The position numbers and the translations under genes are program-made. Shown one piece after another: positions 1 to 11,088 of a stretch of 15,372 bases of DNA. The notes under the pieces were generated by a model. It was not told the DNA's origin. It did not search any database and was given only the letters and a program-made list of their open reading frames with translations. The stretch is from Thermococci archaeon (lineage in GTDB: Archaea; Hadarchaeota; B88-G9): positions 1-15,372 of the forward strand of contig QMUK01000025.1 in assembly GCA_003660555.1 (NCBI GenBank). The letters are read 5' to 3'. Position 1 is the first letter of the stretch. Every line of letters starts with the position of its first letter.

Positions 1-3000
1 AGGTTCCCTAGGCTGGAAGTCCCTCCTATGTCTGTTCCTATCTTGTTTCCTGCTATCCAGTTGTTATTCGAGAGATCCAGCCAAATTCCTTCTCCATCGT
101 TTCCGCTTATGAGATTTCCTTCTTCTGAGTCGCTTACTCCGTCTCCGTTCGTTCCTATGATGTTCCCATCGGAGTGTGTGAGAGCCACTCCTCTATTTCC
201 ATTGCCGAGGTCAGATGTTCCTCCTATGTCTGTTCCTATCTTGTTTCCTGCTATCCAGTTGTTATTCGAGTAAGATAGGTATATCCCGTTTCCTTGGTTA
301 TGAGATATCACGTTTCCTTCCTGAGAGTCATTGGTTCCATCTCCGTTCGTTCCTATGGTGTTATTATCAGAATATATCAGGGATACTCCACTTCCTGTGT
401 TTCCTGCTGGGTTTCCTCCTGAATCTAAGCCTATGTAGTTTCCTTTTATCCAGTTCCCAGTTATCTCTGCTCCACTACCCCCTTCGAAGTAGATACCGTC
501 TCCCTCATTGGAGTATATGTAATTGCCCTCGATGGTATTGTCTCTCGGGACATAGTATGTCCCTCCAGATTGATAAAGCCCGTATAGGTGAATTCCATGG
601 CCTTTATTGCTGAATATTTCGTTGTTCCTTATCTCGTTGTTAATTGATTCCCCACTCACGAAGATCCCATCTGTAAAGTCGTATCCGTATGGATGTGAGC
701 CATCGAATATACATCCGTTATAGGCTATTGTATTCCCATCCACTATATTGGAATCAGACGCTGCGTAAACTGGGTTGTTCCAGTCATCTGTCCCTATTAT
801 GATTCCATATGCTCCGTTTCCACAACCTCCTGGTAATGAACTCGAACCGTCTGCTTGAGTACCTATCAAATTACCCTCTATTGTGTTGTTGTCTGAGCTG
901 TATACGAAGATTCCCCACCATCCGTTTCCTGAGACTAGGTTATTTCTCAATGTGTTGTTGTCAATACTCCCGTATACTAGTATTCCTTCCCAAACGTTTC
1001 CAGGCTGGAAAGGCGTCGGGGAAATGGGAAGGTGTATAGCGTCTGTCCCTAACCTGTTGACTCCAACGTAGTTGTCTTCGATTAAATTGTTCCCATCGAT
1101 TGACGGTGCAGTTGGGGACCTCGATATTACTATTCCTCTGCCTCCACGCCAGTCCCAATCGCTACTTGTGTATCCATTACCCGAGACTAAATTATGTGCT
1201 ATCGTGTTATTTGTCGAGTCGCGTATGTAAATTCCGTCCATTTCGGTGTTTCCATATACATCATTGTTGAAGTAAGCTGGAGCGTTCGGTATCAAAATTA
1301 CACTTTCTCCAGTGGGATCAGTTCCAATGTAACAGTATTCGACTGTATTATTGCTGGTTCCGGAATCTATCCTTATGCCCGATGCTGTTGGGAAACCCGT
1401 GTAGATGAATCCGCTAATTGCTATCCATCTGACGAAATTATCGTCAGATTGAATTGTTATGACTCCGGTGTTAGGTGAAAGTGCCCAATTTCCATCGCTA
1501 CTGATCAGTATCGGTGGACCATAAGGAAGAGTCCAGCCGTTCCTACTATTCGAGTTCACAGTGTATCCTTGGCCTAAAGCGTAATTTATCTGTTCAAATC
1601 CGTTTAAGTCAGTTCCGTCGTCTTGAATTGCTGGAAGTTGACTTTGTAACGTTATCTTCCAATATCCGACAGTAGAGTTGTAACCTGGATCGGTATCTGG
1701 GATCATGAACCTACTTAGATTCGGACCCGCTATTGCATTCGAGTTCTGGATGAATTGTCTGAGAGAACCTTGGCCTGAGTCGTTGGTATTCACTATTATC
1801 TCGAAGTTGAATCCCATGTTGACTCCCGTTACAGGGCTGCTCACTGTGACTATTACCTGGTTGTCGTCCTCTACTAGGGGATCGTCTCCTCCGAACTCTG
1901 AGTAGCAGTTCCCTGCTGAAGTGCACTCAACGGTTTGCTCTGGCTTCACGTCCGAAACAGTGTAACCTGGGTTCAGGCCTGCAGAAGGTTCCATCCAATT
2001 TGGATCAGTTTCTACTTTGACGCAGTAATCCCCTGGGCCCGGAGCTGCCAAGATGTAGTCTCCGTTTGAATCGGTTATTGTGATGTCGTATATTATTGAG
2101 CAATCGCAGTTTCCTCCCGATACCCCACAAAGCATGACTGTGACGTTCTCCAATGGTGAATCTTCTCCCGGGATGAAGTCTACTCCCAAGTTAGGGGGAA
2201 GGTCCTCGAATATCTTTCCTTCGACTGTGTAGTTGTTCAAGGCTTGGGCGTAGTAGAGGGAAAGACCTATTGCTGCTGTTCCTAATCTATATATGTCATG
2301 AGTAGGATCAGTGGTGTCATAATATGCTCCAGGGGTAGCTGACTCTAGATTTCCTATGATGTAATCCACGGCATCCATTCCACTTGCTATTTCCCTGAGA
2401 GCTAGTAGGGTGTAAGAGCCAGAAGCTTGATCTCTCGAGAATCTCTCGGTGTTGTCGTGGAGTTTATATCCGCCGGGAATCGAACCGTCTGAATCTGTGT
2501 TAGGGCACACGAAGCTTCCATCTAATTGCTGCTGACTCAATAGCCAATTTAACAAGTCTTGAGATGAAGAAGTCTCTCTGAGATATGCCCATGAGATCGC
2601 TGCTGCTGAGGACTCCACTTCATCTCCAGTAGATGCATCAGACCTCGGTAGGGCCCCATTTGTTTTTTGCATATCCTTCAATTTATCAGACAAACTCTGG
2701 ATACACGTGCTATAGTCGTTAGCGCTGAATCTATCCAGCAATATGAGAGAGGACAGCAAAGTGATTATGCCCCTAGTATCGTTTGGTGAACTCTTAGAAA
2801 GCGGGAAACTAGTTCCTGTAGCAGCGTAATACCAATCTCCCGTACCTGGATCGTAGAATACATCTCCCGTCATATCGCATGAGAAATCTGCTATTCTCTC
2901 TGCTGCTTGTAAATAAGTAGAATCTCCAGAAACCTCGTAAAGTTCTGTTAGAAAGGATATCGCTTGTCCCTGATCGGCCATCGTCCAAGTCGCTGATAAG

Positions 3001-3479
3001 CTTGGTGTACTTCCTGGAGTCACTCTCCCTACTCCGGCTTTACTCATACCACAGGAACCTATGAACACGTTATTATTATTGTATACTAAGTAATCTCCCA
3101 ATCCCTTCGCTTTATCGAGGTAGTTCTGAGCTGTGAGTGCATCTCCCTCACTCAGGTAAACCCAGTAGGCTCTGATCATTATTAAGCCAGCCATTGCGTA
3201 ACTTCCAGGCCTCTCACCGTTCGAAGTGTCACCGCAATTCGTGGCTATTCCATTTGGACCTATCGTTGGATCGAATGCCCAAGCCGGAAGTGGTGGATCA
3301 GCGAACTCCGGTTCCCTCATTACATACACTGTAACCATGTCAAAAGCTGGTCCAACTTCGTTGTAGATATAGGAGGCTACTTCTTTGAACTCCTGCCTGT
3401 AGTTGTACTGGGAGCTCACGTGGGATGGCGCCAAGAGGGCACATAGCAATATCGGGATCACAACATAGTAATATCTCAT
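1..3479 (-). CDS. Large secreted multidomain surface protein with right-handed beta-helix (partial, C-terminus beyond window)
   Basis: I translated this frame by hand and found no stop down to the left edge, so at least 1,159 residues are encoded and the end is missing. ATG 3479 follows GGGGAG by 8 nt. Residues 1-23 form a signal peptide (Arg, then VVIPILLCALLA, then SHVSS). Residues about 25-410 are helix-rich with repeated aromatic hairpins and resemble an alpha/alpha toroid (six-hairpin glycosidase or lyase type); I see no assignable catalytic residues. Residues about 417-550 look like an SdrD/carboxypeptidase-regulatory beta-sandwich (VEGKIFED, then GDYCVKVE). Residues 564-582 carry NTNDSGQGSLRQFI, the motif that typically precedes CSLREA-type pectin-lyase-fold proteins. 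From about 690 on, repeats of the N-x-I-x-GN-x-IGTD type indicate a right-handed beta-helix. Likely a cell-surface adhesin or polysaccharide-active protein. The fold calls are inference, and the substrate is unknown. Confidence 0.88.
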   Translation of the reverse strand, partial: MRYYYVVIPILLCALLAPSHVSSQYNYRQEFKEVASYIYNEVGPAFDMVTVYVMREPEFADPPLPAWAFDPTIGPNGIATNCGDTSNGERPGSYAMAGLIMIRAYWVYLSEGDALTAQNYLDKAKGLGDYLVYNNNNVFIGSCGMSKAGVGRVTPGSTPSLSATWTMADQGQAISFLTELYEVSGDSTYLQAAERIADFSCDMTGDVFYDPGTGDWYYAATGTSFPLSKSSPNDTRGIITLLSSLILLDRFSANDYSTCIQSLSDKLKDMQKTNGALPRSDASTGDEVESSAAAISWAYLRETSSSQDLLNWLLSQQQLDGSFVCPNTDSDGSIPGGYKLHDNTERFSRDQASGSYTLLALREIASGMDAVDYIIGNLESATPGAYYDTTDPTHDIYRLGTAAIGLSLYYAQALNNYTVEGKIFEDLPPNLGVDFIPGEDSPLENVTVMLCGVSGGNCDCSIIYDITITDSNGDYILAAPGPGDYCVKVETDPNWMEPSAGLNPGYTVSDVKPEQTVECTSAGNCYSEFGGDDPLVEDDNQVIVTVSSPVTGVNMGFNFEIIVNTNDSGQGSLRQFIQNSNAIAGPNLSRFMIPDTDPGYNSTVGYWKITLQSQLPAIQDDGTDLNGFEQINYALGQGYTVNSNSRNGWTLPYGPPILISSDGNWALSPNTGVITIQSDDNFVRWIAISGFIYTGFPTASGIRIDSGTSNNTVEYCYIGTDPTGESVILIPNAPAYFNNDVYGNTEMDGIYIRDSTNNTIAHNLVSGNGYTSSDWDWRGGRGIVISRSPTAPSIDGNNLIEDNYVGVNRLGTDAIHLPISPTPFQPGNVWEGILVYGSIDNNTLRNNLVSGNGWWGIFVYSSDNNTIEGNLIGTQADGSSSLPGGCGNGAYGIIIGTDDWNNPVYAASDSNIVDGNTIAYNGCIFDGSHPYGYDFTDGIFVSGESINNEIRNNEIFSNKGHGIHLYGLYQSGGTYYVPRDNTIEGNYIYSNEGDGIYFEGGSGAEITGNWIKGNYIGLDSGGNPAGNTGSGVSLIYSDNNTIGTNGDGTNDSQEGNVISHNQGNGIYLSYSNNNWIAGNKIGTDIGGTSDLGNGNRGVALTHSDGNIIGTNGDGVSDSEEGNLISGNDGEGIWLDLSNNNWIAGNKIGTDIGGTSSLGN
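7..270 (-). repeat. 198-bp (66-residue) tandem coding repeat in the beta-helix region
   Basis: Bases 22-72 and 220-270 are identical over 51 nt and lie exactly 198 bp apart, so the period is 66 codons. Both copies encode NNNWIAGNKIGTDIGGTS followed by LGN. Inside the unit, 144-160 is repeated with one offset (144 to 342, again 198 bp), so a third, more diverged copy begins beyond 270. This is an internal protein repeat that probably continues past the left edge, and the near-perfect DNA identity suggests recent duplication or gene conversion. Confidence 0.85.
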
Positions 3480-3481
3480 CA

Positions 3482-3523
3482 CTCCGTCTCCCCAAGCCCT
3501 CAGAGAAAACTAGATATTTATAC
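3482..3523 (-). promoter_or_regulatory. TATA box and ribosome binding site of the surface-protein gene
   Basis: On the minus strand TATAAATA lies at 3522-3515. A transcript starting about 25 bp on would begin near 3492 and leave a leader of roughly 13 nt before ATG 3479. GGGGAG at 3493-3488 and GGAG at 3485-3482 are candidate Shine-Dalgarno sites. Spacing supports the assigned start; the transcription start itself is inferred. Confidence 0.55.
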
Positions 3524-10164: not shown

Positions 10165-11088
10165 ATGGAAGATTGTCTGAGTAAAAGTACTAGCTCGGTG
10201 ACCGGGTTGTTTAGGGAGAACTTGAGAGAGAAATGGTTTAAAGGTAAGATAAAGAAGTATTCGGATTCAAAGAGCCTAAGGTGTATTATAAGGAAGATAA
10301 GGGAGAAGAAAGTTCCAGAGAGCGCGTTCTTCCGAGAAATAATTAGAAATAGGGTCGAGGTCATTGGCCTGAGAGAACTATTAGATCTAGAGAAGTCCTT
10401 GTGGAGACACTACGAAGAGGTAATGAAAGTTATCGAAATATACGTGTCTGTATCAGTTCTGAGCCCAATACGAAATAGAAGAGAGTCCGCTAGGTTCTAT
10501 AAAGAGAGAGTACTCCAAATAGATGAGAAGTACTATGAATTGGGTAAGTCATCCCCAGAGGAGTACCTAAAATCCATGAGGGAAATAAAGGAGAGGTGTA
10601 AGATAGAAATAGACTGCGTATTACTAGAGCACAAGATAACTGAGCTGATCAAGGAAATAGCTAAACTGATGGGTTGTCCCAATGGCCAAAGACCAGAACT
10701 GCTAGGATTCATCAGGCGAAGTCCTTTGCATAAGGCTAAAATGCAAGAGCTATTCGAGTATAGGGACCTACTCAGAGATGTCTCAAGGAGTTGTGCTCTA
10801 GCGAGGAAGTCCCTTTCTGTAATAGGGAGCCTAGGATACTCTCCCTCGGAGATAGTAGGGCTTAGACCTCTTCTCGGACTGATGAATAAAAAGTACAAGC
10901 TTCCAAATGAGCTAAAGGCTAAATTTCAGGAGAAAGGTCTCCTAAAAGGAGAGGAATTGACCGAACTAGGAATAGAAATTGCAGAGATGCTTATGGTCCT
11001 AGACGAAGTAGCTAGGAGTTGTGGCTACGAGTCGTTTGAGAAAATGCCCTTTGCCAAATTTGAAATAGAAAAGAAGACTAATCCCTAG
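10165..11088 (+). CDS. Unrecognised basic, alpha-helical protein
   Basis: A 307-residue reading frame that I do not recognise. It is rich in Lys, Arg and Glu, has no signal peptide or membrane segment, and looks almost wholly helical, with coiled-coil-like stretches around 60-175. Cysteines are scattered (for example C4, C40, C144, C150, C169) without a zinc pattern. The C-terminal part, about 230-280, ends in EKGLLKGEELTELGIEIAEML, which resembles the recognition helix and wing end of some winged-helix proteins; this is weak. The ATG 10165 start has only a distant GGAG (14 nt), so the start is uncertain, and GTG 10198 is an alternative. Codon use matches its neighbours. It ends convergently with the VIT-like gene, the two stops sharing CTAG. 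Confidence 0.75.
   Translation: MEDCLSKSTSSVTGLFRENLREKWFKGKIKKYSDSKSLRCIIRKIREKKVPESAFFREIIRNRVEVIGLRELLDLEKSLWRHYEEVMKVIEIYVSVSVLSPIRNRRESARFYKERVLQIDEKYYELGKSSPEEYLKSMREIKERCKIEIDCVLLEHKITELIKEIAKLMGCPNGQRPELLGFIRRSPLHKAKMQELFEYRDLLRDVSRSCALARKSLSVIGSLGYSPSEIVGLRPLLGLMNKKYKLPNELKAKFQEKGLLKGEELTELGIEIAEMLMVLDEVARSCGYESFEKMPFAKFEIEKKTNP

Follow-up and report, generated by a model that had tools for sequence, protein, structure and literature searches.

A probably secreted archaeal beta-helix protein with a helical, probably toroidal, N-terminal domain

The large gene at one end of contig C25 of the archaeal genome G000 appears to encode a new arrangement of mostly familiar modules, in which a helical, probably toroidal, N-terminal domain precedes an SdrD-like segment, an SLRQ block and a long beta-helix; in our searches, which were of limited depth, no fusion of a toroid to a beta-helix was found elsewhere. 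We consider it reasonably likely that the gene product is a secreted modular archaeal surface protein with a beta-helix stalk and a toroid head that binds or modifies polysaccharide. The window analysed here is the whole of contig C25 (15,372 nucleotides), which belongs to a genome of 1.295 Mb in 150 contigs with a completeness of 91%.

The gene and its modules

A single frame on the minus strand (3-3479, ATG at 3479) extends over 1,159 codons with no internal stop and is still open at the end of the contig, where its C-terminus is cut. The following features were assigned, all on the minus strand.

3515-3522, minus: TATA-like element (TATAAATA), read from the sequence by resemblance to the consensus only
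3488-3493, minus: GGGGAG, a ribosome-site-like stretch before the ATG, likewise by consensus resemblance only
3408..3479, minus: signal peptide, residues 1-24 (MRYYYVVIPILLCALLAPSHVSSQ), by hydrophobicity, with a putative cleavage site
2232..3407, minus: helical domain (residues 25-416), probably an alpha/alpha toroid, from weak Pfam and PDB matches and low-confidence models
1800..2231, minus: SdrD B-like beta-sandwich segment, residues 417-560, from SdrD_B (1.9e-3) and archaeal and Deinococcus ficus homologues
1410..1799, minus: SLRQ segment (residues 561-690) directly before the beta-helix, from the motif and archaeal matches
3..1409, minus: right-handed parallel beta-helix (residues 691-1159), truncated where the contig stops, from PF05048, PF13229 and TIGR03804
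4..392, minus: two 191-nt DNA copies, 73% identical, with a spacing of 198 nt and a 43-nt sub-stretch that is 98% identical

The signal-peptide region contains the sole 19-mer of the 1,159-residue protein with a hydrophobicity above 1.5. The SdrD-like segment begins at GKIFEDL 421; SdrD_B alone is sub-threshold over residues 437-497, and the curated cut-off of PF17210 (SdrD B-like) is not reached (18.8 vs 29.7 bits). Archaeal homologues of the segment score similarly low on PF17210 (20-23 bits), and the assignment is backed by these homologous segments in other archaeal proteins. The SLRQ motif (NTNDSGQGSLRQFI) lies at residues 564-577 of a segment that matches archaeal TLRQF/SLRQF proteins with E-values down to 2.3e-15. 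All three beta-helix families exceed their curated cut-offs: PF05048 with 88 vs 23.6 bits (7.8e-25), PF13229 with 79.4 vs 25.9 bits (3e-22) and TIGR03804 with 82.9 vs 19.45 bits (9.3e-24). This agrees with an earlier note on this DNA, which had described an open frame of 1,159 residues changing character along the chain and encoding a secreted archaeal surface-type protein with an SdrD-like segment near residues 417-550 and a long beta-helix. The Asn/Gly-rich IGTD repeats listed there proved to be two tandem units of 66 residues (IGTNGDG at 1042 and 1108, IGTDIGG at 1081 and 1147), preceded by looser rungs.

The frame is truncated because the contig ends inside the 198-nt repeat, which is likely to have caused the assembly break in short-read data. 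A query with the C-terminal part of L036, a related archaeal protein, had its sole match in genome G000 at bases 5-160 of contig C109, within a frame (2-1273, L125) of 423 aa that is open at its 5' end. This frame starts with the ending typical of the block proteins (NSFFENGELGIDL ... NLNFPVITYA ... NTSEF) and continues with a marginal Big_6 match (0.01), apparently beta-rich sequence and a lysine-rich basic tail; a hydrophobicity scan of it found no transmembrane segment. Contig C109 probably carries the C-terminal end of the window gene, with the end of the beta-helix, an Ig-like domain, the beta-rich sequence and the basic tail, because a single D. ficus plasmid protein, WP_027464140.1, is matched by the two pieces in adjacent stretches and in unchanged order (window gene at 611511-610147, C109 fragment at 610122-609541). 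In L036, the homologous C-terminal part likewise comes after the SLRQ block, and genome G000 yielded no second SLRQ gene. Since no k-mer of at least 12 was common to C25 and C109 in the stretches compared, we infer the join with a gap of unspecified length between the contigs. If C109 is indeed the C-terminal end, the full protein would comprise at least about 1,580 aa, and the link would provide the likely full gene for expression work. Downstream of L125, C109 holds a 299-aa frame with no Pfam match, followed by a 352-aa frame with a marginal match to a GH31 TIM-barrel (2.7e-5). Contig C122 was rejected as the missing part, as it encodes a different beta-helix protein of the NosD type with different codon use. 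This second large beta-helix gene (L126, 3-3410) has a GC3 of 0.34 and an AGR/Arg of 0.68, unlike the window genes, and either does not belong in the bin or was acquired recently.

The neighbouring genes in the window are ordinary archaeal ones, namely those for a metallophosphoesterase, an Lhr-type helicase, HypD, VIT1 and TYW3 according to Pfam, a class I tRNA synthetase that we read as the isoleucyl type, and three tRNAs. A 307-aa frame at 10165-11088, between the DUF7847 and VIT1 genes, has no Pfam match at E<=0.01.

Distribution and origin of the SdrD-SLRQ-beta-helix block

By its sequence, the part of the protein that runs from the SdrD-like segment through the SLRQ/TLRQ block to the beta-helix is of an already known kind, and the helical N-terminus is the less familiar part. 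The same order within one chain, as present in the window protein, was found in 24 of 393 other archaeal genomes from 12 genera (25 of 394, and 13 genera, if the window's own genome is counted), mostly in proteins of 1,500-3,300 aa. The closest archaeal block shares 43% identity over about 224 residues. In L036, L037, L038 and L039 the SdrD-like and SLRQ/TLRQ segments lie close together, and other proteins have an insertion between the SdrD-like segment and TLRQ. The likeness of L036, L037 and L039 to the window protein extends to the C-terminal module; the three N-termini read in this group are non-toroid by Pfam (DUF2341 in L036). None of 20 large archaeal SdrD-SLRQ proteins matched the helical domain. 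The order of the blocks from the SdrD-like segment to the beta-helix is not new; for the joining of toroid and beta-helix, whose novelty the earlier note left to a search, we found no second case at the depth searched. Archaeal adhesin-like proteins combining a right-handed beta-helix with archaeal Big domains (PMC11532034) resemble the window protein in their stalk of beta-helix and beta-sandwich; the main text of that paper makes no mention of a toroid or of SdrD.

The D. ficus protein, annotated as a right-handed parallel beta-helix repeat-containing protein, also shares the SdrD-like segment, SLRQF, the beta-helix and a C109-like end with the window protein, at about 28% identity, but its N-terminus resembles, by eye, DUF11-type sandwich domains and not a toroid. 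A recent transfer of the entire gene from bacteria would be in line with the failure of the block to match any of the phylum's 27 other genomes. Beta-helix proteins in general were present in 20 of this phylum's 28 genomes, G000 among them. However, the nearest match of the block is archaeal (43% identity vs about 28% for Deinococcus), and the gene, in all three of its parts, uses codons (AGR/Arg 0.8-1.0, ATA/Ile 0.59-0.67) much as its neighbours do (0.95 and 0.71). The tRNA-His gene was rejected as an integration site, as no second copy of its end was present to mark an insertion. With bacterial chromosomes covered by an insensitive pattern scan only, we regard a recent bacterial origin as improbable; the transfer suggested in the earlier note is unsupported because the closest match is archaeal and the codon usage native, and the part from the SdrD-like segment to the beta-helix did not turn out to be mainly bacterial in this sample.

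The N-terminal helical region

At E<=10, residues 25-416 matched two Pfam families only, C5-epim_C (2.4e-4) and Prenyltrans (0.033), both of which are alpha/alpha toroids, and a PDB search returned complement C4 chains only (E 0.0055), the matched part of which we take to be the toroidal TED domain. All of these matches are weak and below curated cut-off, with 21.1 vs 23.3 bits for PF06662 (D-glucuronyl C5-epimerase). The archaeal C5-epimerase profile aligned in register over residues 104-217, covering two helical hairpins. Two alignment-free predicted models of low confidence (pLDDT 31.5 and 37.3), too poor to serve as structures, were mostly helical, with about 12 helices. A Foldseek search with the second of them gave nothing significant; GH76 alpha/alpha enzymes appeared only at ranks 40 and 50, and these matches are meaningless. 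As nothing but toroids was matched in Pfam and the PDB, residues 25-416 probably form an alpha/alpha toroid, and the helical toroid proposed in the earlier note stands as the likeliest fold, at the level that weak matches and low-confidence models allow.

No homologues of this region were found in plasmids, viral contigs or genome_contigs, none in 36 genomes from the phylum of genome G233 in a scan that had no positive control, and none beyond short toroid-motif matches in 394 archaeal genomes. The empty genome_contigs and viral scans are weak evidence because the same pattern method also missed the SLRQ block in genome_contigs, where the peptide patterns were unhelpful although the block is common in archaea.

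Possible role of the protein

The protein would be exported by the Sec pathway to the outside of the cell, where the beta-helix and sandwich domains may form a long rigid stalk or a glycan-contacting surface, and the N-terminal toroid could serve as the functional head, binding or altering a polysaccharide that belongs to the archaeon's own coat or to a neighbour. Its role is probably related to sugars. C109 offers no transmembrane segment as an anchor, which counts against this reading.

Since C5-epim_C is the family that the N-terminal region matches best, the protein might be a divergent D-glucuronyl C5-epimerase that is joined to a beta-helix and modifies uronic-acid polymers, and the conserved positions of the first half of this family are largely retained (W165, Q170, Y181, Y189-L190, F199). 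Nevertheless, for the second half, the profile alignment leaves the conserved columns (EY, LNG, YD, Y, H) unaligned or without a counterpart in the window protein, and the identity as a D-glucuronyl C5-epimerase was rejected because this half is absent. Comparable scores of 18-26 bits were also obtained with other archaeal proteins, about 570-1,280 aa long and including the GH127-like L138, each of which covers a short stretch of the model. Because of these partial matches elsewhere and the unaligned second half, the C5-epim_C match supports the fold and not membership in the family. Genome G000 moreover has a bona fide C5-epim_C protein elsewhere, on contig C36 (L064, 6760-7272; 1.6e-51), with no match in the other genomes of its phylum in that search. 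Taken as an explanation of the window protein, a divergent epimerase is therefore very improbable.

Alternatively, the toroid may lack catalytic activity and serve for scaffolding or binding, the protein as a whole being an adhesin or a structural protein associated with the S-layer, a possibility that we take seriously while somewhat doubting it. It fits the absence of the second half of the epimerase, the failure of the N-terminal region to match any enzyme family above cut-off, and the description of archaeal beta-helix proteins as adhesin-like (PMC11532034). No catalytic residues were identifiable in the N-terminal region, homologues for locating conserved residues being lacking. On the other side, many secreted alpha/alpha toroids act on carbohydrates, among them GH76, GH88, GH127, several polysaccharide lyases and epimerases. 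We favour a head on a stalk that either binds or modifies polysaccharide; that residues 25-416 found an undescribed carbohydrate-active family of alpha/alpha toroids, which an uncultured lineage of archaea displays on a beta-helix stalk, seems rather unlikely. If the head is an enzyme, a small uncultured archaeon would be tied to extracellular polysaccharide processing.

Precedents for a toroid head on a stalk exist among archaea. The archaeal surface proteins L134 and L135 have an N-terminal alpha/alpha toroid, as the window protein probably does, followed by stalk domains (Big/MG, Ig-like), which we count in favour of the head-on-stalk reading; their toroid is of the Prenyltrans type and, unlike the window protein, they have no beta-helix by Pfam at E<=0.001. 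The archaeal SdrD-SLRQ-beta-helix chassis appears to accept a helical, probably toroidal, head. Toroids were also seen in other settings: the archaeal frame L136:15354-18527 unites a strong Prenyltrans toroid (5.3e-39) with an ABC-transporter ATPase domain, an unusual combination, and in L137:4867-8037 an archaeal SQHop_cyclase/Prenyltrans toroid is joined to a VWA domain.
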